A stretch of DNA of 64,000 nt, taken from assembly GCF_024300825.1 (NCBI RefSeq), contig NZ_CP101323.1:372001-436000 (forward strand), given 5' to 3'. Shown here piece by piece: positions 4,532 through 60,831 of the stretch; the stretch's first letter is position 1, and the number at the start of each line of letters is the position of its first letter. Both the position numbers and the translations under genes were made by a program. Under the pieces are notes generated by a model that was given only the letters and a program-made list of their open reading frames with translations, was not told the DNA's origin and did no database searches. This stretch comes from Natronomonas gomsonensis. Its GTDB lineage: Archaea > Halobacteriota > Halobacteria > Halobacteriales > Haloarculaceae.

Positions 4532-4673
4532 AACTGACAGAAGAATTTCTCGGCCCGAAAGGACAGATTACATTATGCACACAAAATAGACACAGAAAAC
4601 CAGCAACTGTATCTAAAATGTGTTCAAAATGTAACCGATTCTCATTGCATTTTGCTGAGTCGTTGCCAGATAG

Positions 4674-5747
4674 ATGGCAGATTATTCCGGAGACCCCTCC
4701 GAGTTCAAGGTGTACTGGTTCGCCAGAGATCTTGTTGCCTCCAGCTACGGAAGCTATGCTACCAAAGAGACAGCAACGCTCAAGCAACTCTCCTCACAAC
4801 TCGGAAGAGAACTTGAAGGAGAAGGACTCCTGAATGAGACAGATCTTGAGACACAGAAACAGCAGATAAGAGACACCATCACCGGCTCTGTCAACAAAAC
4901 GTATGGTGGCGACATCTCGAAACGCTACCGCCAGACAGAGGACCTTGTCGAAAGGATCCTGCGGCGAATTGAAGAAGAAGATGACGTCCGTGAGTTCCGA
5001 ATCGCCATTGATGCAGTGGTCCGGACCAGCGAAATTCTGGATACAGCACCTAGTTTCGACAAAACGGAGATCATAGAGATAGTCAATGAAACCCTTCAAA
5101 CTGAGTCAGGATCTCTTGACCCGACCAAAGCCTACGATGCCTTGTTCAACGTAGACTTTGAGGGAGAAGCCTACCAGCTGGGAGCGCAACGAGAACCACT
5201 TATCGACTACATCCACGAAAAGATCAACGAGCTACGTGCTGATCCTCACATTGAGAAGAAAGAGGTAGCCCGAATCATCTCAGGAATAGCTCAAGAGTAC
5301 GAACGCCGTGCAGGGCAGAGCCGGGCGTCAACTGCCGGAAACGTGCTTGAAACTGGTCTTCAGCACATCTTCAATCAGTTCCAGATTCCTGCCACTGGAG
5401 ACCCTGCACACTTCGGTGATCTTGAGATCGACAACATGGTGGACGGTCCAGAAGGCAGCATTGGCTTCTCCTGCAAACGAACCCTCCGGGAACGTTTCCG
5501 CCAGAGTCTTTCCAGAGAGGCTGAGATCGGAGTAGATGAAGTTTGGTTCGTCTCCTTACTGATGGCTGATGTTTCCAAGGAGAAGCTTCAGGATATCAGT
5601 AATGACGGGAGCAGGATCTACGTACCCCGCGATTCCTTCGTCTGGAATCGATACAATGAGGATAGTGATCTGTCCTATACTCTACGTCCTGCCGACCAGT
5701 TCATTTCAGATGTAACCGAGTTCACGGGTGTTTCTGCGAACCTATGA
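4674..5747 (+). CDS. Type II restriction endonuclease-like protein (subunit A)
   Basis: 357 aa. The C-terminal half has RASTAGNVLETGLQ (helix), HFGDLEID (candidate catalytic Asp) and GFSCKRTLRERFRQ (xCK plus a basic helix). This matches the EcoRII-C / BsaWI-like nuclease core, where a lysine strand is followed by a T/S-L-x-x-R-W/F-R-Q helix. The N-terminal ~190 residues are helical. Its stop overlaps the start of the next gene (ATGA at 5744), so the two are probably made in equal amounts. It sits beside C5 methyltransferase genes. Recognition sequence cannot be read from sequence. Confidence 0.6.
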   Translation: MADYSGDPSEFKVYWFARDLVASSYGSYATKETATLKQLSSQLGRELEGEGLLNETDLETQKQQIRDTITGSVNKTYGGDISKRYRQTEDLVERILRRIEEEDDVREFRIAIDAVVRTSEILDTAPSFDKTEIIEIVNETLQTESGSLDPTKAYDALFNVDFEGEAYQLGAQREPLIDYIHEKINELRADPHIEKKEVARIISGIAQEYERRAGQSRASTAGNVLETGLQHIFNQFQIPATGDPAHFGDLEIDNMVDGPEGSIGFSCKRTLRERFRQSLSREAEIGVDEVWFVSLLMADVSKEKLQDISNDGSRIYVPRDSFVWNRYNEDSDLSYTLRPADQFISDVTEFTGVSANL

Positions 5748-6451
5748 ACCAAGACGTGAAAAACCGGATTGAACGGTACACCTACTGGGATATCTTTGAG
5801 GAGGATGTCAACCGCAGAAGTGACCGTGAAATCCTCACAGATATAGAGGGCCTGATGACAAATGTGGTCGACGAGGTTACAGAACGAGCACGAGAGAACG
5901 GAAAAGACGTCTCACAGGTCCGATCCAACGTCGCTGGGAATTACTTCCAAGCACTGGTATCATACGCTACTGCCGATGTGGCGGCGGAAAACGGGTTAAG
6001 ACTTCTTCACAGCAAAAAGCTGGAGTCGACAGAACTAGCGGACGCAGTTCCCATAATCGGTGGAGAAGACGAGACTATTCTATCACCAGACTCTGACATT
6101 GTCTACTACGATCCGGATGGCGGACCCATCTTCATAATCTCGTGTAAGACAAGCTTCCGGGAAAGAATGGCTCAGAGCGGCATGTGGAAACTAATGTTCG
6201 AGGTTGCGACCCACTCCTGTACCGATCCTGACTGCCCCACCCACAACTATTCTTTCTCAGGAGAGTTTGAACGGGATATCTACATGGGATTCGGCACGGT
6301 AGATTTCTACGACGACGTCGAATCCAAAGACATTGTAGAACTGTTCGACTTCGGGTATGCGCCTACGGTGGATGAAGGGACTTCTGGGGTAGCATATCCT
6401 ATGGAAAGACTGCTCGATCACATCGAAAATCGGTGGAGCAGCTTTAGATAG
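5744..6451 (+). CDS. Type II restriction endonuclease-like protein (subunit B)
   Basis: 235 aa. The core reads SPDSDIVYY (Asp), IFIISCKTSFRERMAQ (CK strand plus Arg helix) and MFEVATHSC, homologous in layout to the core of the preceding gene. The tail has a C..C motif (CTDPDCPTH). Overlapping starts and shared motifs suggest a two-subunit (heterodimeric) restriction enzyme, or two enzymes paired with the two methyltransferases. Its stop overlaps the convergent methyltransferase-like gene by 8 nt. Confidence 0.6.
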   Translation: MNQDVKNRIERYTYWDIFEEDVNRRSDREILTDIEGLMTNVVDEVTERARENGKDVSQVRSNVAGNYFQALVSYATADVAAENGLRLLHSKKLESTELADAVPIIGGEDETILSPDSDIVYYDPDGGPIFIISCKTSFRERMAQSGMWKLMFEVATHSCTDPDCPTHNYSFSGEFERDIYMGFGTVDFYDDVESKDIVELFDFGYAPTVDEGTSGVAYPMERLLDHIENRWSSFR

Positions 6452-43307: not shown

Positions 43308-44297
43308 TTAGATATCGGGCAGTTTCTGAGCACTCCGCCCGATCTGGGAATCCACCTCGACCACTCCGGAGTCTTCATCCTTGTACTCATCCTGCAGCTC
43401 GATCATGCCCTCAACCATCTCCATCATCTTATCCGCCTTCTCCCAGCGATGCTCGTCACGTTCAAACTCGAGCTGGCTGCGCGCCTTCTCGATCTCCCAG
43501 TCCTGCTGCTCCCACTCCTTCTCCAAACGTTGTTCATCTAGATCCATCCTCCGCATATCCTCCTCATGATCCAGCTTCCGTTGCATCCGCTTCCGGCCAT
43601 CCTCCTTCCGGATCTTCTCCTTCTTCGTCTCCTCCTGAATACGGGTCTGCTCTAACTGCCGTTCCTGCTTCATCTCAACCTTCTCCCTCTCCAACCGATT
43701 CTTCATCCTCTCTTTTTTCATCTCGAACTCCTTCTGCAGCTCAGCCTCCTCTAACTGCCGAACTTGTTGAACCTGTTCCTGCCACGCTTTGAACTGCATC
43801 TCCCAGGCCTGAAGCCTGCGGTTGAACTCGACTTCCTCGTACACGTCCTGGAGACAGTCCCAGCAGTAGGCCTCCTGGTGAGGCCCGTAACCATACCTGT
43901 GCTCCTGGCACAGGACTGTATCACAGGCCGCACAACGCCCTGCACAGATTTCACACGTCCTCGTCTTGCACTCCACACACCGGCCGTGAAGCTTGTTAGA
44001 AAACTCCTGGCCACCGGTAACAGTCTTACAGGAAGGGCAGATAGGCCTTTTCCGGATCTTTATCTCGAACTGATCTCCATTCTTCATTCCCCGCAGAACT
44101 ATGTTCGAGGCCTTCCCGTTCCCTGCCTCGACCGGTTGCAGAATATTCATCTCTGCCGAGAGCTTGTCGGTACCGTCATCCAGCTCTTCGATTTCCGGAG
44201 GATCAACGGCTACATCTTCGACAGAGGAGACATCGATGTCTAATCCGAGATCGTCGACAGCTGACTCAAGCCGCTTCTGCAATTGGTTTACGGACAT
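43308..44297 (-). CDS. B-box-like zinc finger with long coiled coil
   Basis: 329 aa. Residues about 85-150 carry many Cys/His pairs (CPSCKTV, CVECKTRTCEICAGRCAAC, CQEHRYGYG, YCWDC), like a cross-brace or B-box finger. From about 155 to 305 it is one Arg/Glu/Lys/Gln-rich helix. The layout resembles a scaffold. Second gene of a three-gene operon. Confidence 0.6.
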   Translation of the reverse strand: MSVNQLQKRLESAVDDLGLDIDVSSVEDVAVDPPEIEELDDGTDKLSAEMNILQPVEAGNGKASNIVLRGMKNGDQFEIKIRKRPICPSCKTVTGGQEFSNKLHGRCVECKTRTCEICAGRCAACDTVLCQEHRYGYGPHQEAYCWDCLQDVYEEVEFNRRLQAWEMQFKAWQEQVQQVRQLEEAELQKEFEMKKERMKNRLEREKVEMKQERQLEQTRIQEETKKEKIRKEDGRKRMQRKLDHEEDMRRMDLDEQRLEKEWEQQDWEIEKARSQLEFERDEHRWEKADKMMEMVEGMIELQDEYKDEDSGVVEVDSQIGRSAQKLPDI

Positions 44298-46470: not shown

Positions 46471-47436
46471 GTGGTTAGGATTACACAACAAGACAATTTA
46501 CCACAAGAATACGAAAAAGCAGAAAATCAGCTTGAAGAAATATACGAACTGTTCAAGTCAGGAGAGATTGAGGAAAAGGCCTCAAAAGCGTTAATCACTC
46601 CTAAAGAAGGAGATGAAAGGCCTCTACACGACTGGAGCTTCAGAAACCGGTTGATGGTTATGATAACCGGTACAAGAGACGCCAGAGGCTACAACCAGTG
46701 GCAGGAAGTAGGGCGGCAAGTAAAGGAAGGAGCAGAATCAGTTAGAATCCTCGCACCCAGCACCTACACCAAAACTGTAGAAACAGATTCAGAGATTGAA
46801 AGACTCCGTGACAAAGGCTATGCGTCTAAGATAGAGGAAACCGAGGACGGAGTACAGTTCGAGATTATGAACGGTTACAGGGCTGTTCCTGTTTTCCCTG
46901 TAGAAGACACGAAGGAGATGGAAGACTTCGATGGAGAACCGTACAGGCCTGAACACCTCGATTACACACCGGACAGCGACGATCTCCCGGAACTGCTTCC
47001 GCTCGCTGAAAAACTCGGTGTAGAAGTGGAATACGACGCCGTCAGAACCCGGAAGGCCTACGGCAGTTACGGTAACGACAAAATCCGACTTCACACTGAG
47101 GAACAGCAGACGTTTTACCACGAACTTGCCCACAAAGTAGATGAAGAGATTCAAGGCGGCTTGAAGGCCGGACAAGACCGGGAACAAGAGGCCTGTGCGG
47201 AACTCGCCGCCGCCGTTCTCACAAGACTGTATGAGGGAGAGGAAGTGGCACAAGAGGCTTACAGCTACGAATATCTCCAGAACTACAGTGAGAAAAACGA
47301 AGAGGCCTATGATTTGGCTCTGAAAGTTCTCGGAAGAGTCGAGAAAATCCTGAAGTACGTGATAGAGAAAGCCGGGGAAGAGGAGCAGATTAACTCGGGA
47401 ACACGGGCGGTCGTCCGGGAAACAGTAGAAGGGTGA
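46471..47436 (+). CDS. ArdC-like antirestriction protein with zinc metallopeptidase domain
   Basis: 321 aa from GTG at 46471. Residues 50-100 (WSFRNRLMVMITGTRDARGY then WQEVGRQVKEGAESVRIL) match the ArdC N-terminal ssDNA-binding domain. FYHELAHKVDE (HExxH) with a downstream E (EQEACAELAAAV) is a zinc peptidase signature like that paired with ArdC and TraC-type proteins. ArdC proteins protect incoming plasmid DNA against host restriction. Strong TATA-like A/T stretch just upstream. Confidence 0.75.
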   Translation: MVRITQQDNLPQEYEKAENQLEEIYELFKSGEIEEKASKALITPKEGDERPLHDWSFRNRLMVMITGTRDARGYNQWQEVGRQVKEGAESVRILAPSTYTKTVETDSEIERLRDKGYASKIEETEDGVQFEIMNGYRAVPVFPVEDTKEMEDFDGEPYRPEHLDYTPDSDDLPELLPLAEKLGVEVEYDAVRTRKAYGSYGNDKIRLHTEEQQTFYHELAHKVDEEIQGGLKAGQDREQEACAELAAAVLTRLYEGEEVAQEAYSYEYLQNYSEKNEEAYDLALKVLGRVEKILKYVIEKAGEEEQINSGTRAVVRETVEG

Positions 47437-48425: not shown

Positions 48426-49010
48426 CTACCTTTCTTGTACTTCCACCAAGTTAGTCCACTCCCAACCCCCGCCAGACAGATCCCGTGCATAACCATCCAT
48501 CTTCAAATCCTGTAGATCTCCTACATAGTAGCTGAACTCCGGATCAGCAACCAACCAAAAACCAGTCTCAGCACTCTCCTCCTCAAAGAAGATCTCATCC
48601 GCATCCCTACCCAATTCTTGACGATAGAATTTTCGCAAAACACTACACACCAGCTCAGTGTCCGGAACAGGACAATACACCTCCGGAAACACATGCTGAT
48701 TCTCACCCAAAGGATCCCTGACAACAACAAACCGGACATCAAGGCCTACACTCTGATACAGACTTCCCAACAACACAGATTGATCCTGACAGTCACCATC
48801 CAAACGATCCATCATCTCCCCAGGAGACGGAACATCAGGGCCTGAAAGAGAATAGCTCGAACCACTTTCCACGAAAAAATGCAGAGCACAGGCCTCAACC
48901 ATCCAATCGGGGAACTCACTGCCAGCAAAAACACGTCTAAGCTCACTAGGAACGTGAGGAAACGCCTCCGGCTCCAACTCCGAAAAATACGCTACAGAAT
49001 CAACAACCAT
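48426..49010 (-). CDS. Transglutaminase-like cysteine-protease-fold protein
   Basis: 194 aa. LDGDCQDQSVLLGSLYQSVG (Cys), NQHVFPEVYC (His) and WLVADPEFSYYVGD (Asp) supply the Cys-His-Asp triad of the transglutaminase-like superfamily. In prokaryotes these are mostly proteases or peptide-bond-modifying enzymes. Coupled (6 nt) to the gene at 49017. Confidence 0.6.
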   Translation of the reverse strand: MVVDSVAYFSELEPEAFPHVPSELRRVFAGSEFPDWMVEACALHFFVESGSSYSLSGPDVPSPGEMMDRLDGDCQDQSVLLGSLYQSVGLDVRFVVVRDPLGENQHVFPEVYCPVPDTELVCSVLRKFYRQELGRDADEIFFEEESAETGFWLVADPEFSYYVGDLQDLKMDGYARDLSGGGWEWTNLVEVQER

Positions 49011-49899: not shown

Positions 49900-50743
49900 C
49901 TATAAGACATCAGGAAAGATGGGGCTTCCAAACCCCTGAGTACAGAATCGGTTCGAAACGGTAGGGCAAAACAGCATATACAGGCCTCAACAATCCGTAA
50001 TGTAGGAGTGCGTTTCGATTTAAACACGGAGGATTTCTAACCGGTAAAAACCACTCATCAACCAGTACAGGAACTCTGAGGCCATACCATCTCAGCGTTC
50101 ACCCTGCTCTTTGGTGTGGTACTCGTTCTATGACACCCTCGAACTCTAGTAAAGACGATTCAGAGAGAAACATCCCTTGGAAATTTTTTTTTGGGGATGA
50201 TACACCCCACTGATGACAAAATCTTAGAATTATTCAAGTTTTTAGGAAATGGTGGCAGAAATAGAGTGTTATAGGCCTTAACGGCTTGAAATATAGGAGC
50301 AGATTTTCAGGCTGACTCAATTAATTTCCGAAAAATTTGCTACCGGCATGTGATGAATAGAGGGGTAAATCAAAGGTAAAAGAGCTAAAGATGTCGATAT
50401 TGCTTCTCAGCAGTTTTTTTAAAGACGTCAAGTATGTGTGTGTGACCATTTCCGAAAAAACTACTTTCCCAAAGAAATTTGATATAACACTGTTATATTA
50501 TATAACGCTGTTATATTCTATATCACTCCTCACCTCATTTAAAAAGGTCCGATATTTTCCAGGTCTCACACCTCTCTTCTCTTGGATATTTAGGAAATGG
50601 TCACACACAGGCAAATCTCTCACACACAGTTGAGTACAGATTTGGAGAATTGGATTGTCGAGCTAAGATCCATGAGATCTTTTCCGAACTTACAGAACAA
50701 ATTGAACCAAAGGAATAAAAAAGGAAATTGTCCAGAAATAAAT
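49900..50743. other. Candidate replication origin upstream of orc1/cdc6
   Basis: About 840 bp without a convincing gene. TTTAGGAAATGGT occurs twice in direct orientation (50241-50253, 50589-50601) and once inverted with one mismatch (50445-50457). ATTTCCGAAAAA occurs at 50324-50335 and 50448-50459. The stretch is A/T-rich from 50340 to 50590. Inverted repeats next to orc1/cdc6 are the hallmark of haloarchaeal origins; the sequences differ from the usual ORB consensus as I know it. Confidence 0.55.
50482..50516. promoter_or_regulatory. Two tandem palindromic operators
   Basis: ATATAAC-ACT-GTTATAT (50482-50498) and ATATAAC-GCT-GTTATAT (50500-50516), centres 18 bp apart. Same arms as the site at 47974. 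Likely binding site for a dimeric repressor controlling orc1/cdc6 or origin firing. Confidence 0.55.
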
Positions 50744-51946
50744 ATGTCTCAAAGCGACAATACAACTAACCTCTTCGATGACTATTCAGAAAATAAGATC
50801 TTCGAATCAACACGGCCACTCGGATACGAGTTTTTTCCTTCACTCGAAAACATAGTAGCCAGAGAAGAAGAGATCAAACAGATAAGAAAGAAACTGAAAG
50901 GAATACTCAAAACAGGATATGGAGAAAACTTCGTAGTAACAGGGAATACAGGGCTTGGAAAGACAACCTGTGTCAAAGCTGTCCTCAACCAACTTGACGA
51001 AAAGATGCAGGAGGAAGACCAAGATCTCACTGTATCTTACATTGAGGCCTGTACCAACGAGCGGCAAGTACTCAGAAAGTTAGCTCACGACATAGAAATC
51101 GATTACAGAGGAAGTGATCTCAGCAAGTACTACCACGAACTGAAGAACAAGATAGTCGAAGAGGACGCTTCATACATCCTTGTTCTTGACGATATCGATC
51201 ACCTGTTCAGCGATAAAAGCCAGAACGACCATGGAAATTCACTTCTCAAGAAACTATATGAAGTAAGAGAATACGCCTTGAACAATAGCGATGGAGGCCT
51301 TGTAGTTGGAGGAGTCACCAACAATTCAGACATCTATGATCAGTTTAACCCGAAAAATCGCAGCCGCTATGCCGATGATACTATAGATTTTTCAGAATAT
51401 GACTCTCACCAGCTTAGGAAGATCCTGGGGAACAGAGCTGAGAAGGCCTTCAAACAGACTGCACTGCAGAACGGTGTTCTCAACAAGATAGCTGCCTACG
51501 TGGCGAAAAATAGCGGGGACGCCCGGAAGGCTATCCGCGTACTAAAGAAAGCTGGGCAAATAGCTGAGGAGACTCACGAGCAGGTCAAAATGGATCACGT
51601 CGATGAGGCTATTGACGAGGTGGAAACCAATCAGATTCTCAAATCCGTCAAACAGCTTGCTCTCACGAAAAAGTACGTTCTCTACTCGGTGATGGAGGAA
51701 AGAAGAAAAAAGCCCAGCTTCAAACAGGTCTACGACAAGTACGAGAAAGTCTGCAGTGAGTGGAATAACGAACCGGTCAGCGAAAGACAGGTCCGGTATG
51801 CTATTGATGATCTCGATATGTTTGGGCTTGTAGAAACAGGCTCAAAGAGCGGTAGAGGAGGGAAAAAGTACGCAAAGGCCAGGATCAAGGATGATGTGGA
51901 AGATGACATCTTGGGTTATATGGAGGAGGAGGTATTTGATAGCTGA
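50744..51946 (+). CDS. orc1/cdc6: Orc1/Cdc6 replication initiator
   Basis: 400 aa from ATG at 50744 (MSQSDNTTNLFDDY), which lies about 30 nt after an AATAAAAAAG box; the upstream in-frame extension to 50597 is not protein-like. Walker A VTGNTGLGKTTCVKAV, Walker B YILVLDDIDHLF, sensor-like GGVTNNSD and a C-terminal winged helix (QVRYAIDDLDMFGLVETG). It binds origin repeats and starts replication. Adjacent repeats suggest an autonomous replicon. Confidence 0.9.
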   Translation: MSQSDNTTNLFDDYSENKIFESTRPLGYEFFPSLENIVAREEEIKQIRKKLKGILKTGYGENFVVTGNTGLGKTTCVKAVLNQLDEKMQEEDQDLTVSYIEACTNERQVLRKLAHDIEIDYRGSDLSKYYHELKNKIVEEDASYILVLDDIDHLFSDKSQNDHGNSLLKKLYEVREYALNNSDGGLVVGGVTNNSDIYDQFNPKNRSRYADDTIDFSEYDSHQLRKILGNRAEKAFKQTALQNGVLNKIAAYVAKNSGDARKAIRVLKKAGQIAEETHEQVKMDHVDEAIDEVETNQILKSVKQLALTKKYVLYSVMEERRKKPSFKQVYDKYEKVCSEWNNEPVSERQVRYAIDDLDMFGLVETGSKSGRGGKKYAKARIKDDVEDDILGYMEEEVFDS

Positions 51947-53342: not shown

Positions 53343-55331
53343 GTGTCTCTTCACGATCGGCTTCTGCAGGAGGCTAAGGATGCGAACATCGATGATGACC
53401 CTGAGGTTCAAAAGTATCTGAAATTGGTCAACCTCGCTCCAAATGACCACGTCAAGAAACTGTATGCGAAGAAACTGAAGGCCTTGATAAGGCAACACCG
53501 CAGTCATCCTTTCCCCGGTGAGCAGTCACCTGTAGTACCGCGGTCCTCGATTAATGTTGGGAGGGGTTGGAAAGGGGGGTTGGTCTCACTGCCTGTCGAC
53601 GACCTTACGAAGCACTTTCTGGCAGTCGGTCAATCCGGTTCGGGAAAGACCACATTGTTCTATAACTTGATGTCGGAGCTGGACGATCTGGATATCCCTT
53701 TCTGGGCGTTTGACTTGAAGCAGGACTACCGGCACCTGGTGAAGTCAGAGGAGCTTGATGATATCTTGGTGCTGCCGGTGGAGAAACTCAGGTTCAATCC
53801 ATTAGAGGCTCCGCCAGGTGTCGAACAAGGGGACTGGCTTTCCGCTTTCATGGAAGTGTTTTGTGAGACTCAGGAGTTGCTGGGAGGGTCTGACCGCTTC
53901 CTCGATGAGCACCTACACCAGTTTCAGAATAAGAAGGAAGGCCAGCCAACGCTGCTTAACTTGAGGAACTATATTCAGGGTCTTTCTGTTCATCCTCAAC
54001 GGCAAGGTTTCCAGAACAGGATAAGGACGAGTATCGGACGACTGCTGAGAGATGCACCTCACACTTTCAACGTAGAGCAGGGTTATGAATTGGAAGATCT
54101 ACTGCAAAGGAACGTCGTCTTCGAGTTCGGGGGTCTGAAGAAGTGGACTCAGAACTTCCTGATGGAGATCCTGATAGCATGGATATACGAGTATAGGAAA
54201 GCGCAGAATCATAGGGGAGACGGGTTGCGCCACGTTACGTTCCTGGATGAGGCCAAGACCATATTTTCAGTTTACAAGGAGAAACAGGTGGCTTCTGGAC
54301 TGCCTGAGAGTGATAAGAAGATAGCGAAGGTACGGGAGTTTCAGGAGTCATTCATCGTGGCAGATCAGGAGGCGAACAAATTGACTGACTCGATCAAGGC
54401 AAACACGTATTTCAAGGTACTATTGGCTACAGGTGATGCCAAGGAGTTCAGGTCAATCGCAGAGTCGCTGAAGATGGATGGCCTGCAGAAGCGGTGGGCG
54501 AAGAAGCTGGCAGTGGGTGATGCCGTTATTCAGAAAGGGGAGAATGAACCGGTCCCGGTGAAGCTTCCTGATTTTGATTTGGAGAAGGACGTGACTGATG
54601 ATGACCTGGTTTCCTACATGAGTGAGGAGTGGAGGGATCTGTCTTTCCAGCCTATAGATTCCTCTATTTCAGGTCATGTAGAAGACTCCGAACAAGTGGA
54701 TAGATCGGAGCAAAATAGCTCTAAGCCTGCCGAAGAACCCGAACTGGACGTTTCTGAGAGAGCGGAGCGCTTAGTGAGAGATATAGTGGAAAACCCGTTC
54801 AGATCTGTTACTGAAAGATACGAGGATTTCTCCAGTAGATACCAGGGGGACAAGGCGAAGAAGGAACTACTGGATAAGGAACTGGTTGAGGAGAAAAGTG
54901 CGAAGGTGAAGCAGGGCAGGGTCAAGCTGTTCGAGCTCACTGATCGAGGGGAAGACGTCGTCGAGGATCTTGATGTAGAGTTTGAGAGATCTGGCAGAGG
55001 TGGCGTGGTCCACAGGTACTGGCAACACCGTGTTTCCGATAGTCTTGAGGAAGAGGGCCTGAACACGGTTATTGAGAAAAGCCATGCTGATGTCTACGTT
55101 AACGTTGATGGGGAAGCTGTAGCAGTCGAAGTCGCAATGGGCAGGAACGATAGAGAGGTTGAGCACATCTCTGATCGCCTGGATAAAAAGTTTGACAGAG
55201 TGGTGACCCTATGTAGAAACGAATCGATCAAGGGATTCATTGAGAACAGGATCTCTGATATCGACGTATCTACTGAACAAGTAGAGATCCGTCTTCTTCG
55301 TCAGTTCTTAAACAGGGATAGCTTGTTGTGA
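53343..55331 (+). CDS. HerA/TraG-like ATPase with winged helix and nuclease-like C-terminal domain
   Basis: 662 aa, GTG start. Walker A AVGQSGSGKTTLFYNL (94-109), WAFDLKQDYRHL, Walker B RHVTFLDEAKTIF, then FIVADQEANKL. After a linker (about 435-485) come a winged helix (485-560) and a C-terminal domain (ADVYVNVDGEAVAVEVAMG) that looks like a PD-(D/E)XK fold with E-x-A in place of E-x-K, so probably inactive. Such ATPases pump DNA in conjugation or packaging. Confidence 0.75.
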   Translation: MSLHDRLLQEAKDANIDDDPEVQKYLKLVNLAPNDHVKKLYAKKLKALIRQHRSHPFPGEQSPVVPRSSINVGRGWKGGLVSLPVDDLTKHFLAVGQSGSGKTTLFYNLMSELDDLDIPFWAFDLKQDYRHLVKSEELDDILVLPVEKLRFNPLEAPPGVEQGDWLSAFMEVFCETQELLGGSDRFLDEHLHQFQNKKEGQPTLLNLRNYIQGLSVHPQRQGFQNRIRTSIGRLLRDAPHTFNVEQGYELEDLLQRNVVFEFGGLKKWTQNFLMEILIAWIYEYRKAQNHRGDGLRHVTFLDEAKTIFSVYKEKQVASGLPESDKKIAKVREFQESFIVADQEANKLTDSIKANTYFKVLLATGDAKEFRSIAESLKMDGLQKRWAKKLAVGDAVIQKGENEPVPVKLPDFDLEKDVTDDDLVSYMSEEWRDLSFQPIDSSISGHVEDSEQVDRSEQNSSKPAEEPELDVSERAERLVRDIVENPFRSVTERYEDFSSRYQGDKAKKELLDKELVEEKSAKVKQGRVKLFELTDRGEDVVEDLDVEFERSGRGGVVHRYWQHRVSDSLEEEGLNTVIEKSHADVYVNVDGEAVAVEVAMGRNDREVEHISDRLDKKFDRVVTLCRNESIKGFIENRISDIDVSTEQVEIRLLRQFLNRDSLL

Positions 55332-55338
55332 CTATTGT

Positions 55339-56412
55339 TCAACTTTCCCAGTGTTTGAGGCTTGGCTCGGTATCCTGGACTGTTTCCCGTAGATGACGTT
55401 GACTGACTGGCTGTAGCTCATCTTGCTCCACGGATTCGATGTGTGCCGTTTGAGCAGCCTCCTCCACTATTTTCTCGAGGTCGGAAGCTGAGAACTCCTC
55501 GGTTAATTCGGCTAACCGGTGAGTGTCGACATCTTCTGCAGTGGTCCGGTTTCCTAAATGGATCTGTAGTATTTCTTCGCGGGCATCCGGTTCTGGTGGT
55601 GGGACTTCTATCTTCTGGTCGAATCTGCCGCTCCGGCGGATAGCGCCGTCGACGTTGTCCAAAAGGTTGGTTGCCGCGATCACGACGATATCCTCGCCCT
55701 GGACTTCCTGAATGCTTTGAATCATTTCGCTGACAGCGTTGCTGTAGGCCTGTCCGTCTCGCTCCAGACTCTGCCGGTTGGAAGCGATAGAGTCGATCTC
55801 GTCAATAAAGATGACGCAGGGCTGCATCTGCAGGGCCTCATCGAACAAGTCGGCTACGTTCTTCCCGGTCTCTCCGACGTAGCTGGAGATAAGATCGGAA
55901 CCTCGGATTTTTGCGTAGCTGTAGCCAAGTTCGCCGGCGAGGGCTTTGGAGATATACGTCTTTCCGGTTCCTGGTGGGCCGTGGAGAAGAATGCCGTTCG
56001 TAGGGCTGACTCCAAGCATTTCACGGTACTCAGAGTCCTCGAACTGGTGGATGACGTTGTGCTGAAGCAGTTTTTTCAAGTCTGTCATCCCGCCAACGTC
56101 GTCCAGGTCCAGATCTGGAGGCTCCTGGAAAAACTCAGAGCCATCCATCTGACCGTTCATCTCCTTCTTCCCTCGACGCTCTTTCCGACCGTTACCGTTG
56201 TTCACTTCATTTTTAGCGATGTCGTCGAACGAGTCACTCATATACTCAAGTTCACTTGCTCGTTCGTCCTCGATCTCCTCGGAGACCTTCTGCAGGTACT
56301 TCTTCGCCTTCAAGAGTTTCTTCACTCGTTCTTCTGAGGAATCGGCTTCATGAGCTTCGTCGACGGCCTGCTTGAACTGCTTCGTGTAATGAGACTCACT
56401 GGACAAGCTCAT
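55339..56412 (-). CDS. AAA+ ATPase with MIT-like N-terminal hairpin (Vps4/katanin-like layout)
   Basis: 357 aa. N-terminal ~50 residues (YTKQFKQAVDEAHEAD...VKKLLKAKKYLQKVSEE) form a three-helix hairpin resembling the MIT domain. Then a linker and a classic AAA module: Walker A GPPGTGKT (145-152), pore loop IRGSDLISSYVGET, Walker B IFIDEID (201-207), sensor AATN and RRSGRFDQK (259-267). The arginine-finger segment is of PAN/Cdc48 type instead of the RRRF of true Vps4. Last gene of a three-gene operon with a Snf7-like coiled coil. Confidence 0.7.
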   Translation of the reverse strand: MSLSSESHYTKQFKQAVDEAHEADSSEERVKKLLKAKKYLQKVSEEIEDERASELEYMSDSFDDIAKNEVNNGNGRKERRGKKEMNGQMDGSEFFQEPPDLDLDDVGGMTDLKKLLQHNVIHQFEDSEYREMLGVSPTNGILLHGPPGTGKTYISKALAGELGYSYAKIRGSDLISSYVGETGKNVADLFDEALQMQPCVIFIDEIDSIASNRQSLERDGQAYSNAVSEMIQSIQEVQGEDIVVIAATNLLDNVDGAIRRSGRFDQKIEVPPPEPDAREEILQIHLGNRTTAEDVDTHRLAELTEEFSASDLEKIVEEAAQTAHIESVEQDELQPVSQRHLRETVQDTEPSLKHWES

Positions 56413-57095
56413 GATCCTTGCTTCATCTCCTCGATTTTCTCGTACTCTTCCTCTATCGCCCGGTCAATCTCTTCCTCAGTCTCCAAGCTGCGGTCAGACA
56501 GATTGATTCCATTATCCTCTTCTTTGACCTCTGATTTGATGTCAGAGATATCTACTCCAGAGAGTTCCTCGTCTGCTAAATCCATCGCTTGATCCAAGTC
56601 ATCCATGTTTTCAGAGGCATCAATCAGCTGGTCTTCCCCTTCCTCAATTGCAGATTCGATATCTCTGGTTGAGAGTTCGGACAGGTCAATGTCGAGGCCT
56701 TCGATAGCTCCGGACCTGATGTTGTTCTGCAGGTGCTGTAGCTTCAGCTGAGTCAGAGTCAGCTTCTCGCTGCGGAGGTGATCCAGGATTTTCTCCTTTT
56801 TTTCTCCGGCGACTTTGTGCTCTTTCGCTTCCACCATGTAATCATTCTTGTCAGACTCTGTGGAAGCTCCCCGCGCCTTGTCGAAGGCTTTCTCCTTTTT
56901 CTTTTGATGCCGGGAAACTTCGCGTTCCAGTTGGTCTATGGTTTCTTCCCGGCTTTCGATATCTTGCTCGAACTGTTGGATATCGTGTCCTGATTCGAGG
57001 ACTTCGCCGTCGCCGTCGAGTTCGAGGCCAGCCACTTCTACTGGTTCATCGGCCTGTTCTTCTTTGTCGCTGGTCAGCCAACTTCGTAGTTTCAT
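56409..57095 (-). CDS. Snf7/ESCRT-III- or PspA-like coiled-coil protein
   Basis: 228 aa. A Glu/Lys-rich helical hairpin (about 35-115) is followed by further helices (about 116-215) and a last helix EEEIDRAIEEEYEKIEEM that could act as an MIT-interacting motif. This is the order of ESCRT-III subunits. Similarity is by layout; PspA or a generic coiled coil cannot be excluded. ATGA-coupled to the AAA gene. Confidence 0.45.
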   Translation of the reverse strand: MKLRSWLTSDKEEQADEPVEVAGLELDGDGEVLESGHDIQQFEQDIESREETIDQLEREVSRHQKKKEKAFDKARGASTESDKNDYMVEAKEHKVAGEKKEKILDHLRSEKLTLTQLKLQHLQNNIRSGAIEGLDIDLSELSTRDIESAIEEGEDQLIDASENMDDLDQAMDLADEELSGVDISDIKSEVKEEDNGINLSDRSLETEEEIDRAIEEEYEKIEEMKQGS

Positions 57096-57364
57096 GTTTC
57101 TGTCTCACCTTTGTTTTCTGAGTCGACGAAGAGCACAGTTAGTCCGGATCCAAGACCTGTTACGGTGACAGCGAAGATCACTGTTAATACGTTTTCCGGC
57201 GTCTGAATCCCTGTTCCAAGAGAGATTACGAAGAAACCTGCTGCAGTGCCGATCAGCAGGAATAGAATGCCTCTGTATATGTTTTCTGTTTCTATGCCTT
57301 TGAGGCCGCTCATAGTTGTCAGCATTCCTGTTGCCAGGCATGCTGCGTATAGTGGAGTGTTCAT
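57092..57364 (-). CDS. Three-helix membrane protein
   Basis: 90 aa. Hydrophobic segments about 5-22, 30-50 and 57-80, ending DSENKGETET. First gene of the operon with the Snf7-like and AAA genes; a natural membrane anchor for that machine. Tail GETET carries the SD of the next gene. Confidence 0.6.
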   Translation of the reverse strand: MNTPLYAACLATGMLTTMSGLKGIETENIYRGILFLLIGTAAGFFVISLGTGIQTPENVLTVIFAVTVTGLGSGLTVLFVDSENKGETET

Positions 57365-57447
57365 GACTGGTTTGTGTCCTACCTCTATCTGGTTGTTAAT
57401 GGGTCCTCAAATTTATGTGTTTCCCTAAATTAAGAATATCCAGATCA

Positions 57448-57981
57448 ATGGATAGTGCAGAATTATCCCAACGCCTTTTTACGCAGTACCTTGTAGCGTT
57501 AGAAGTAATGGAGCCTGATCGTTGGCAGAAAACTGATTTGGAGGCTGTGTCAGCCCTGTTTCAAGGCCTTGCTCATGAGGCTCGGTTGGCTCTTTTACTG
57601 GGGATTTATCAGGATAAGTCTTTGAACGATATCGCCGAGTTTCTGGACATCACCCGTGGAGGGATGCAAGATCACTTGGAGAAATTGATAGACTGCGAGT
57701 TGCTCTACAGGCCTGAGGATTCTGGGAAGACATATGATCTAACGCCATTCGGAGTGTTCTTTGTCGAGTTTCTACTGAGTAATGAGAACATGTTTTCGGA
57801 TGCGGTCGGCCAGTTGAGGTCGGAGGAGATGAAGGTGGAGAAAGCTGTGCGAGAGGTCCGAGATAAGGTTGATGAGGCGGATGTCCCTGTGTCGGAGAAA
57901 GATTGGGAGAGGAAAATCCATTCTAAGAAGTGGGAACAGGCCTGGGATGATATCGAAGAGATCCTCGAAGATGACACGTAG
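57448..57981 (+). CDS. ArsR-like winged-helix regulator
   Basis: 177 aa from ATG at 57448. ALLLGIYQDKSLNDIAEFLDITRGGMQDHLEKL is a winged helix; C-terminal half is charged coil. Shares the promoter motif CCCTAAATTAAGAATATCCA with the 34432 gene. Divergent from the membrane/Snf7/AAA operon and probably controls it. Confidence 0.6.
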   Translation: MDSAELSQRLFTQYLVALEVMEPDRWQKTDLEAVSALFQGLAHEARLALLLGIYQDKSLNDIAEFLDITRGGMQDHLEKLIDCELLYRPEDSGKTYDLTPFGVFFVEFLLSNENMFSDAVGQLRSEEMKVEKAVREVRDKVDEADVPVSEKDWERKIHSKKWEQAWDDIEEILEDDT

Positions 57982-57984
57982 CCT

Positions 57985-58872
57985 CTAGATCCCGGTGAGA
58001 TTTTCGCGGTACTCGATAAATTTCTTCTCGACTTCGCTTCGAAAAGCCATCTTACCCCTGTCTTCGTAATGCCCGACATAGGCCTCCTCGAGATCTTTGA
58101 TACTACCGATAGGGTCTCCGCCCTCATCCATCCAGATCAGTTCTTCCGGTTCTTCAGTTGGTTCACCGTACAACTCAACTGGCTCGGTCTCCGGCCACAG
58201 ATCTTTCTTTTGCCAGAACTCCTTGATCTCCTGGTATGAGCGACGGGCAGTCTCTCGAGGCGTCAAGTGTCCGTTGTCGATCCACCCGTCGGGTGTCCAG
58301 TATTCCCAGTGCGCCATCCGCAGCGGTAGATTACAATCGTAACCGACGACGTTAGCAGGAGGCCTTCGGTCTACAGTCGGTTGAGTCAGTTTTTCTATGG
58401 CGTCATAGGCTTCGTGAGGGTTGCCACCTAAGATATGCACGTCCCAGGCACGGAACTTCGCAGGCCCCAAATCCTCTGCCTGAATCTGACTGTTCCCGTT
58501 TGCGTATCCGAGGGTCGTCGTTTCTGGATCAAGGAGATCAAACGTTTCCTCAGATTTTGGAACGACGATAAATCGGCGTCGTGGATAGTCTTCGAGAAGA
58601 TCCTCGACTACTTTCTGGTATTCTCTGGCCTGTTCTGCGTTGTAGGCGTCTCCGATCACAGCGACTTGCGGCTCCCGTTCCTGAAATTTGTCGAGAAACC
58701 GTTCCAGATCCGGGTCTTCGTATTCATTGTCCATGAAGCCTTCAGGAAGATCGACATTGACGTGCTCATCCGACAACTGGTAGGTGCTGTCTTCACGGTT
58801 TCCCGGAAGATATCCAAGCTTCATTCCCTCAGTCACTATTGGGTGCCGACCGGTGGTTGCGACGTATTCCAA
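57985..58872 (-). CDS. Haloarchaeal DUF6610-like protein
   Basis: 295 aa from TTG at 58872. YVATTGRHPIVTEGMKLGYL, PQVAVIGDAYNAEQAREY and RRRFIVVPKSEETFD look like a nucleotide- or base-processing Rossmann-type fold; similar haloarchaeal proteins are listed as DUF6610, function unknown. The frame is open further to an ATT about 48 nt upstream, so a longer form is possible. Confidence 0.5.
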   Translation of the reverse strand: MEYVATTGRHPIVTEGMKLGYLPGNREDSTYQLSDEHVNVDLPEGFMDNEYEDPDLERFLDKFQEREPQVAVIGDAYNAEQAREYQKVVEDLLEDYPRRRFIVVPKSEETFDLLDPETTTLGYANGNSQIQAEDLGPAKFRAWDVHILGGNPHEAYDAIEKLTQPTVDRRPPANVVGYDCNLPLRMAHWEYWTPDGWIDNGHLTPRETARRSYQEIKEFWQKKDLWPETEPVELYGEPTEEPEELIWMDEGGDPIGSIKDLEEAYVGHYEDRGKMAFRSEVEKKFIEYRENLTGI

Positions 58873-58962: not shown

Positions 58963-59097
58963 TTACTCCTCAGCCAACTTGATCTCGACAGATCCTGTCT
59001 CTCGGAGTTCCTCTACTTCCTCTGGGGAAAGCCAGATAGGTGCTCCTACAATCTGTCCAGTTTGGTCTGTCGAAGCTTCGATTTCGTGTTCACCGAT
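58963..59097 (-). CDS. 44-residue protein with AUC start, overlapping the integrase end
   Basis: Frame with no ATG/GTG/TTG except a TTG four codons from its end, yet protein-like (APIWLSPEEVEELRETGSVE). ATC at 59097 follows GGTGAGAATCACGA, standard spacing. It overlaps the last ~17 codons of the integrase in another frame. Function unknown. Confidence 0.45.
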   Translation of the reverse strand: MGEHEIEASTDQTGQIVGAPIWLSPEEVEELRETGSVEIKLAEE

Positions 59098-60095
59098 TCG
59101 TGATTCTCACCTCCGCCGTCAGTTCTAGCGTACAGATTCAAGGGTTTGATGTGCTTCAGATACTCTTCTCGGACCTCGTCACGCGGAATCTTCGTATACA
59201 GGTCCATGACCTCTTGGTCGCCGTCTCCACGCAGGTACCGGGTGTAGTGGTCGGGCATTCCGTTGTTCCTCATTAAGCTCGTGAAGATCGTCCTGTAGTA
59301 GTGAGGAACGAATTTGTGGTGCCATCGTTTCTCGTCTTCTTCTTCCATGACTTCTGCCTGGACAGCTGCACGGCGAACGGAACGGCGGATTCTCTCCCGA
59401 TCGATTCGGCCACCTCTGATCGACGTGAAAAGATAATCTGAGTCGTCAGATGAGATCGCCATCAACCGGGTCAGGGCCTGCACAGTCTCTTCATCGATCG
59501 GATTGACTGTGTTCGATCCTCCCTTCCGGTCTCTGAAACGGACAAATCCATCCTCCAGCATCAAGTCGTCTTCCTTCAATGAGAGAACTTCATCGGTGCG
59601 AGCACCAGTCTTTGCCATCAGTACGGCTGCTGTCTTATCCCGTGGATCCGAGATATTCTGGATAATACTCCTACCCTTCTCCCAGGTTGCCGTATCAGGC
59701 CTTTCTCTACGTACACGGCCCAGCTCTTCTAAGACGACGCCAGCAGGATTGCCGGTGATATCATCGAATCTTGGACGTTTCATCGCCCAGTCATAGAAGC
59801 TGGAGAGGGACTCGACGTATCTCCTCTTCGTGTTATCCGCTACGTCTCGCTTGTCGATGATCAGGACGTACTGTTCGATATCCCCCACGACCACATCTGA
59901 GGGATGAGTGTCCGGGAAGTGTTCGTGGAAGAATTTCGCAGCGGTACGGCTATAGGAGTTCAGAGTCCGTCTACTCGCTCCGGTGGAGTCCTTCCGACGA
60001 AGCCACTGATTGATGCAGTCGTGCTTGTTTTTGAAGACTTTATGATCCCAGACATCAGCGTCCAGCAATACTTCGTGTTTCTTTTCGCGTGGCAT
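59046..60095 (-). CDS. Tyrosine recombinase (integrase)
   Basis: 349 aa from ATG at 60095, 14 nt after GGTGA. N-terminal SAM-like DNA-binding domain (about 20-110) and C-terminal catalytic domain: TGARTDEVLSL (Arg), HYYRTIFTSLM (His..Arg) and VMDLYTKI (Tyr nucleophile). XerC/D-type; integrates or excises circular DNA. Its position 0.7 kb from the composition break fits an integrated element. Confidence 0.85.
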   Translation of the reverse strand: MPREKKHEVLLDADVWDHKVFKNKHDCINQWLRRKDSTGASRRTLNSYSRTAAKFFHEHFPDTHPSDVVVGDIEQYVLIIDKRDVADNTKRRYVESLSSFYDWAMKRPRFDDITGNPAGVVLEELGRVRRERPDTATWEKGRSIIQNISDPRDKTAAVLMAKTGARTDEVLSLKEDDLMLEDGFVRFRDRKGGSNTVNPIDEETVQALTRLMAISSDDSDYLFTSIRGGRIDRERIRRSVRRAAVQAEVMEEEDEKRWHHKFVPHYYRTIFTSLMRNNGMPDHYTRYLRGDGDQEVMDLYTKIPRDEVREEYLKHIKPLNLYARTDGGGENHESVNTKSKLRQTKLDRL

Positions 60096-60097
60096 TT

Positions 60098-60610
60098 TCA
60101 AGCGTCACCTCCGTTGTCCGAGTCGACGAGTTTCCAGCCCCAGCCCCGTTCGTAGTCGACTTCGTCCTGAGCTGCGAGGAAGTACAGCTGGTTCTCTACT
60201 GGCTGCCGCAAGGCCTCGTCCAACACGCCGGACTCAACGATACTCCGGAGGATCTCATCCAACTCTTGGTAGTTATCGGTGAGGACGGTTCGCAGAGTAG
60301 CCGGTTCGAAGCTGATGACTGCTGAGCTTTCTGACTCCTTTTCTTCTAACCGTTGCTCCAGTTCCGCAACCTCTTCCTTGAGTTCCTGGATCCGTTTCTG
60401 GTCGCCGCCAGACCTCATCGCTCCGTGCTCTCTGTAGGCCCGGCCCTCCTGGATCAGTTTGTAGAGGTACTTTGAGCGGGAGAGGTCTGCCTCGTCTGCT
60501 TCCTCATCCCACTGTTTGATATCTTCTTCTTTGCATACGACCTGTGCGACGTCGCTGTCTTCTGCGAAGCCGCCGGTCTCTTTCCACTGCTTCTTATTTT
60601 CTTCTGACAT
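60098..60610 (-). CDS. Integrase-partner coiled-coil protein
   Basis: 170 aa from ATG at 60610, with GGAGGT upstream. LSRSKYLYKLIQEGRAYRE then a coiled coil (QELKEEVAELEQRLEEKE). Similar proteins commonly sit next to haloarchaeal provirus integrases; may regulate excision. TGA overlaps the integrase region. Start at 60610 chosen over 60679 because of the SD. Confidence 0.6.
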   Translation of the reverse strand: MSEENKKQWKETGGFAEDSDVAQVVCKEEDIKQWDEEADEADLSRSKYLYKLIQEGRAYREHGAMRSGGDQKRIQELKEEVAELEQRLEEKESESSAVISFEPATLRTVLTDNYQELDEILRSIVESGVLDEALRQPVENQLYFLAAQDEVDYERGWGWKLVDSDNGGDA

Positions 60611-60713: not shown

Positions 60714-60831
60714 TGATTCTTTATGAGTGCCGAGGCCAGCTTTCTACCCGTGCATCTACGAAGGGACGTGAAGTGGACGACCGTCCGACTCGCTCGCAAA
60801 CACTCAAATCCCCGACGCACCTAGAGGACAC

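Follow-up and report, generated by a model that had tools for sequence, protein, structure and literature searches.

A predicted ESCRT-like operon carried by a fusexin-type integrative element of Natronomonas gomsonensis

Can a mobile element of a haloarchaeon carry a membrane-remodelling kit of the ESCRT-III/Vps4 kind and, if so, what could such a kit do for its carrier? This question is raised by three adjacent genes in a stretch of 64,000 nucleotides of the Natronomonas gomsonensis genome (NZ_CP101323.1, positions 372,001 to 436,000; called here the window), to which a preliminary description, made from the sequence alone, had ascribed this composition. Below, we consider the predicted folds of the three products, the element that carries them, their relatives in other haloarchaea, and the functions that may be proposed.

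The operon and the predicted folds of its products

The three genes are overlapping open reading frames of the minus strand, with a 4-bp overlap at each junction, and they form one operon in the order described previously: small membrane protein, helical protein, AAA ATPase (Table 1). Among 293 genomes, relatives of the helical protein were found in Haloferax sp. Q22 and Natrinema altunense AJ2, one at 57% and one at 24% identity, and both loci share the order divergent HTH gene, membrane protein, helical protein, ATPase. This recurrence of gene order and size in other haloarchaea indicates that the operon is not a chance arrangement. A scan of genome contigs gave full-length relatives only from Q22 and AJ2, the rest being generic AAA matches; further full-length relatives were found with a profile of three ATPases. 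The operons of the window, Q22, AJ2 and genome G328 are referred to as the narrow subtype, and all other relatives as the wide family. The first gene product had been taken for a three-helix membrane protein. Its hydrophobic stretches at residues 32-50 and 62-80 are clear, and a third is weak.

Table 1. Features of the operon and of the neighbouring part of the carrier element; coordinates are positions in the window
Feature	Position	Strand	Evidence and remarks
Small membrane protein, 90 aa, operon gene 1	57092..57364	-	two strong hydrophobic stretches; counterpart at this position in 12 or more relatives
ESCRT-III-like helical protein (predicted), 228 aa	56409..57095	-	AF2 hairpin; Foldseek/VIA matches CHMP1B, Snf7, Vipp1, PspA; family profile
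MIM1-like motif D-x-x-I-x-x-x-Y-x-x-I, last helix, residues 211-221 of helical protein	56433..56465	-	once per protein, near C-terminus, in 4 of 4 subtype members
AAA ATPase, 357 aa, Vps4-like architecture	55339..56412	-	PF00004 E 3e-39, AAA_lid_3; CdvC model; tree
MIT-like N-terminal domain of ATPase (predicted), residues 1-73	56194..56412	-	VIA: 2w2u Z 10.7, 2v6y Z 10.5, 71 residues, 1.8 A
HerA/DUF87-type ATPase, element backbone, ends 8 bp from operon	53343..55331	+	PF01935; conserved in G328, G007, G319, G104 and G211 elements
Divergent winged-helix protein, probable operon regulator, true start possibly further in	57415..57981	+	weak HTH_20/MarR matches
DUF6610 protein, backbone	57985..58872	-	PF20314 E 1e-43; conserved in G284, G007, G319
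Tyrosine recombinase (XerC-like integrase)	59046..60101	-	PF00589 E 2e-18; conserved in G007, G319, G123
Right attachment repeat TATGAGTGCCGAGGCC	60722..60737	.	exact 16-bp repeat, one copy at each composition boundary; left copy G000:C1:330287, 41.7 kb before window

The AF2 model of the helical protein, built on an alignment of three sequences only, consists of helices a1 (residues 39-76), a2 (80-133) and a3 (144-180), and a last helix at 207-227, the a1-a2 hairpin having for the most part a pLDDT of about 90; a long a1-a2 hairpin core with further helices after it is the arrangement expected of the ESCRT-III superfamily. The top 20 Foldseek matches of this model were mostly chains of that superfamily (CHMP1B/IST1, Snf7, CHMP2A-CHMP3, Vipp1, PspA). 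Their E-values were 0.09 or worse and no single one was significant, so that it is the consistency of the ranking, and not any one match, that carries the signal. Superposition by VIA gave CHMP1B (6tz9; Z 11.2, 98 residues, 1.8 A) and Snf7 (5fd7; Z 10.9, 1.9 A); unrelated hairpins reach similar Z values against this protein, which makes VIA less specific here than the Foldseek ranking. Many proteins contain long helical hairpins. The model points to a predicted ESCRT-III-like hairpin, in line with the earlier designation of the protein as Snf7-like.

At the level of sequence, no significant match of the helical protein was found in Pfam (Snf7 included), PHROGs, NCBIfam or PDB sequences, and searches of IMG/VR, phage and plasmid collections gave no relative of it. 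Two conserved segments mark its ends. The N-terminal start, M-x-L-R-x-W, has a low pLDDT and, when checked as a possible amphipathic membrane helix, a low moment. The C-terminal pattern D-x-x-I-x-x-x-(L/Y)-x-x-(L/I), which lacks the usual Arg, constitutes a putative MIM. Snf7 matches do occur among 150 haloarchaeal genomes, and those inspected were mostly PspA-like proteins of ~280 aa, unrelated to the operon; one further candidate relative (L012) was rejected, being a sensor kinase that matched by chance.

In the AF2 model of the full ATPase (three sequences), the AAA part had a mean pLDDT of 41, and the N-terminus alone was used. It is modelled as a three-helix bundle (helices 5-22, 26-46 and 50-73), for which VIA ranked the archaeal Vps4 MIT structures 2w2u and 2v6y first, followed by MIT domains of Vps4, MITD1, NRBF2 and VPS4A/B, with 4niq and 4a5x also among the top matches. 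The N-terminal family profile matched the Sulfolobus MIT structure 2w2u (E 5e-4), as well as TPR-like designs; Pfam MIT was matched by the N-termini of 7 of 16 members, in each case under the Pfam cut-off. Taken as a model, the N-terminus is a predicted MIT domain. The MIT-like character suggested before is supported, with a bundle of three helices in place of the two-helix hairpin.

The remainder of the ATPase is one AAA cassette, in which all the motifs looked at are intact: GPPGTGKT (Walker A), VIFIDEID (Walker B), the arginine fingers and the pore loop (SSYVGE). A Cdc48/PAN-type arginine-finger segment, against which caution had been advised, is indeed present (AIRRSGRFD). This Cdc48 form occurs in the narrow subtype and in few wide-family members; in most of the latter the finger region is shortened (AAWRRFDERI), which we take to resemble Vps4. 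The CdvC model aligns to residues 12-353, with 131 bits against a cut-off of 650, below the PAN and CDC48 models. In a tree that contains several long-branch rows and no CdvC or Vps4 reference, the operon ATPases, together with double-AAA haloarchaeal proteins, are split from the Cdc48 and PAN rows of their own genomes (support 100/100), and the ATPases of the window, Q22 and AJ2 form one clade (99/96). The double-AAA proteins placed with the operon ATPases, apart from the Cdc48/PAN rows, are L030 and L032-L034.

The ESCRT-III-like gene lies directly upstream of the ATPase gene and overlaps it, as in the neighbourhood looked for in Vps4/CdvC systems. The outcome that the preliminary description had named as contrary to its reading, generic coiled coils as the only matches of the helical protein and a non-MIT fold of the ATPase N-terminus, did not occur: MIT structures rank first, and ESCRT-III-superfamily chains lead. 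The ESCRT-III/Vps4-like composition is supported by the folds predicted, by the matches to MIT domains and by the synteny conserved among relatives, and the operon is very probably a module of the ESCRT-III/MIT-AAA type.

A fusexin element as the carrier

Nearly the whole window lies inside an integrated element of 102.4 kb. GC content falls from 0.6 to 0.5 in the part of the contig that extends from 330 kb to 433 kb, and an exact 16-bp repeat, TATGAGTGCCGAGGCC, is found at both composition borders, which substantiates the mobile-element setting proposed earlier. The left copy forms the last 16 bases of an sR-tMet C/D box RNA (snoRNA) gene (G000:C1:330231-330302; L117:18231-18302). In AJ2, G319 and G104, the stretches bordered by this repeat measure 94.8, 103.6 and 97 kb, respectively, and at least one copy of the 16-mer was present in all nine genomes checked, which agrees with a host site that is conserved. 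Elements of this family attach at the 3' end of the sR-tMet C/D box RNA gene.

Inside the element, 33 kb before the window, a gene encodes a 653-aa protein (G000:C1:338657-340618) that matches Fusexin1 (PDB 7p4l, E 1.1e-70 in a PDB sequence search); the Pfam HAP2-GCS1 search did not detect it. It is 72% identical to the copy of Haloferax Q22, whose contig also shares much of the left arm of the element. Fusexin elements were described previously, and their mobilisation was proposed to depend on cell fusion (Moi et al. 2022, PMC9259645). With those elements the window element has in common Fusexin1, a XerC-type tyrosine recombinase, HerA/VirB4/VirD4-type ATPases and a low-GC island, and direct repeats are likewise present; it belongs to the same family. 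The difference is the ESCRT-like operon, since neither ESCRT nor AAA occurs in the main text of that report (PMC9259645).

The operon and Fusexin1 lie within one att-flanked element both in the window genome and in AJ2, whereas in Q22 they share a contig of 56.5 kb. From the coordinates, they would be ~12 kb apart once the window element is excised as a circle. Fusexin1 was found in 8 of 391 haloarchaeal genomes, as compared with three of the four genomes that bear the narrow operon (P 2e-5), a co-occurrence that in part reflects descent of one element family. Of the eight Fusexin1 genomes sampled, three carry the ESCRT-like operon. In the fourth narrow-subtype genome, G328, where the operon adjoins VirB6/VirB4/VirD4 genes, Fusexin1 was looked for and not found. 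VirB4 together with VirD4 was detected in Q22, G007, G328 and G319, and in the window element a HerA-like and a divergent VirB4-like ATPase only.

The operon occupies a site between the DUF87 ATPase gene and the HTH gene. The latter, coding for the winged-helix protein, adjoins the operon in G284 and G007, and G319, G104 and G211 have retained it. In G319, Fusexin1 and the divergent HTH gene are kept and the operon is absent. In G211, the slot held elsewhere by the operon is occupied by a ubiquitin-like/JAB-E1 set: beside the HTH gene of this Fusexin1 element (G211:C1:83600-85951, L152), a 109-aa ubiquitin-like protein and a 498-aa protein combining JAB and E1/ThiF parts were recognised by reading of the sequence. 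Absence or replacement of the operon in some fusexin elements marks it as accessory; a role in transfer becomes less likely on this account, though a case for it is left. In the att-flanked Fusexin1 element of G104 (G104:C1:706837-708745, L137), the HTH gene is divergent from a gene for an ESCRT-III-like helical protein (E 6e-9), with no AAA gene; the gene after it reads as a dual-specificity phosphatase.

Relatives in haloarchaea and known systems

A helical protein of ~220 aa is encoded upstream of an MIT-like AAA gene in 17 of the 18 loci examined, and the small membrane protein precedes it in at least 12 of them. The profile of the four narrow helical proteins matched the wide family with a probability of 95, and the G328 protein bridges the two groups (98 to the narrow three). 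As controls, reversed profiles reached 2 and profiles shuffled in heptad blocks no more than 3. The window's other coiled coils stayed below 3 against the wide profile, while one of them (43308-44297) reached 43 against the narrow profile. No member of the wide family was found in IMG/VR or plasmid collections.

About 14 of the operon relatives lie outside fusexin elements. The wide-family neighbourhoods examined (L047, L043, L056 and similar) contain genes for SPFH with zinc ribbon, PP2C and protein kinase. In G396 (L057:2559-3227 and 4667-6145), an additional helical protein and one with a DO-GTPase2 domain are encoded near the divergent ESCRT-like pair.

The machinery had been thought not known in haloarchaea. 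This claim is outdated, because the systems Halo_FHA, Halo_adaptin and Main clade were published by Makarova et al. (2024, PMC10936438), and the relatives outside fusexin elements also speak against it. The operon resembles those systems in having an ESCRT-III-type gene upstream of that for a Vps4-type ATPase, and in the MIT domain, present in most of their clades; it differs in its minimal set of genes, the small membrane protein, the Cdc48-type finger segment and the mobile-element carrier. The wide-family operons are possibly the published Halo_FHA or Main clades, but an FHA domain had no match in any of the 18 carrier genomes at E 0.001. With CdvB/CdvC of Sulfolobus, the operon shares the closest MIT structures (2w2u, 2v6y) and the proximity of a helical hairpin protein to an MIT-AAA gene. 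On the other hand, CdvA was not found here, no similarity to CdvB could be detected in the sequence of the helical protein, and its motif is MIM1-like instead of MIM2.

Possible function on the element

The mechanism that we favour would start from the helical protein as an ESCRT-III-like polymer former. The MIT-bearing ATPase would probably recruit it via the C-terminal MIM-like helix and remodel the polymer, and the small membrane protein would probably anchor the assembly. The operon is cargo of the fusexin-type integrative element; most likely, Fusexin1 would fuse the donor with a neighbouring cell, DNA transfer would be aided by the HerA/VirB4/VirD4-type ATPases, and the module would then remodel or cut the connecting membrane, so that the cells part, possibly by closing the mating bridge. 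Haloarchaeal mating involves cytoplasmic bridges between cells (PMC7838353). The analysis establishes the order and conservation of the genes, the predicted folds, the integrated element and the presence of Fusexin1 on it; that the MIT domain binds the MIM-like helix, that the helical protein polymerises, that membranes are cut, and where the module acts, are inferences. To the whole statement, an ESCRT-like module which is cargo of a fusexin element and remodels or cuts the connecting membrane after fusion and DNA passage, we assign a probability of about 0.45; that it acts on the fusion bridge, resolving the fused membranes, is put forward tentatively.

Several other explanations have to be weighed. 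Budding of virions, suggested earlier, is not supported, since the carrier is an integrative element of the fusexin type that encodes conjugation-like ATPases and is not recognisable as a virus. The module could instead bud DNA-carrying membrane vesicles, similar to plasmid vesicles, from which Fusexin1 would fuse with the recipient, with no bridge to be cut. ESCRT-dependent vesicles are known in Sulfolobus (cited in PMC10927574) and plasmid vesicles in Halorubrum (PMC10818511); compared by description, the several large secreted proteins and the HerA/VirB4-like ATPase of the element make it broadly similar to the core of pR1SE and other haloarchaeal plasmid-vesicle plasmids, whose core genes, on the same basis, are described with no mention of ESCRT or AAA (PMC10818511). 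The T4SS-like set in three of the four carriers points to cell contact, and we consider vesicle budding unlikely. Repair or sealing of membranes in the manner of PspA/Vipp1, which would shield the host against harm done by the fusogen or the transfer channel, is rather unlikely too. PspA and Vipp1 belong to the ESCRT-III superfamily, the divergent regulator would fit stress induction, and the combined profile of the helical proteins shows a weak resemblance to PspA of haloarchaea (probability 75 against shuffles), a link that is only suggestive; but the narrow profile alone gave no PspA signal (probability 1), and bacterial PspA works without an MIT-AAA partner.

If the HTH-flanked slot, empty in G319 and filled with the ubiquitin-like/JAB-E1 set in G211, simply accommodates variable cargo, then the operon might serve defence, anti-defence or exclusion and be unrelated to transfer; such cargo of elements is often defensive. 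This seems quite unlikely in view of the three divergent elements (24% identity of the helical protein) that retain the operon in the same order and place, and of the chromosomal relatives, which adjoin SPFH, PP2C and kinase genes and no defence genes. Very improbable, finally, is an AAA unfoldase that acts on a coiled-coil substrate through a TPR/MIT-like adaptor-binding domain and remodels no membrane. The finger segment and pore loop (SYVG) of Cdc48/PAN type and the matches of the N-terminal profile to TPR designs would agree with it, and general coiled coils can yield hairpin matches; against it are the first rank of MIT structures for the N-terminal model, the separation of the operon ATPases from Cdc48/PAN rows in the tree, and the small membrane protein in the operon.

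Returning to separation of fused cells, what is new is the coupling of the ESCRT-like module to a fusogen on one mobile element, as haloarchaeal ESCRT itself was already published (PMC10936438); our literature search gave no publication joining fusexins and ESCRT in one system. Since an ESCRT-like kit and a fusogen of the sperm-egg type are located on the same element, it may encode both halves of a fuse-then-separate mode of spread. The strongest form of this idea, a single element that unites a eukaryote-type fusogen (Fusexin1/HAP2 family) with an ESCRT-type fission module and spreads by programmed fusion, DNA transfer and ESCRT-driven separation, appears somewhat doubtful. Fusexin1 gave archaea a gamete-type fusion protein, and the ESCRT-like module is a testable candidate for the parting of fused cells; if true, this would be a prokaryotic counterpart to the fusion of gametes and the abscission that follows. 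It would also show that membrane-remodelling machinery of eukaryotic kind moves between archaea on mobile DNA along with a fusogen, and the joint travel of such genes bears on how they could have gathered before eukaryotes.

Other genes of the element deserve a brief mention. Within the window, an ArdC-type anti-restriction protein (46471-47436), a transglutaminase-like protein (48426-49010) and Cdc6/Orc1 (50597-51946) are encoded on it, of which the transglutaminase-like protein is also found in the Q22 and AJ2 elements. Two proteins of 1125 and 1199 aa (G000:C1:344285-347662 and 362465-366064; L075, L074), with a predicted signal/TM start and no Pfam match, are common to the window and Q22 elements.
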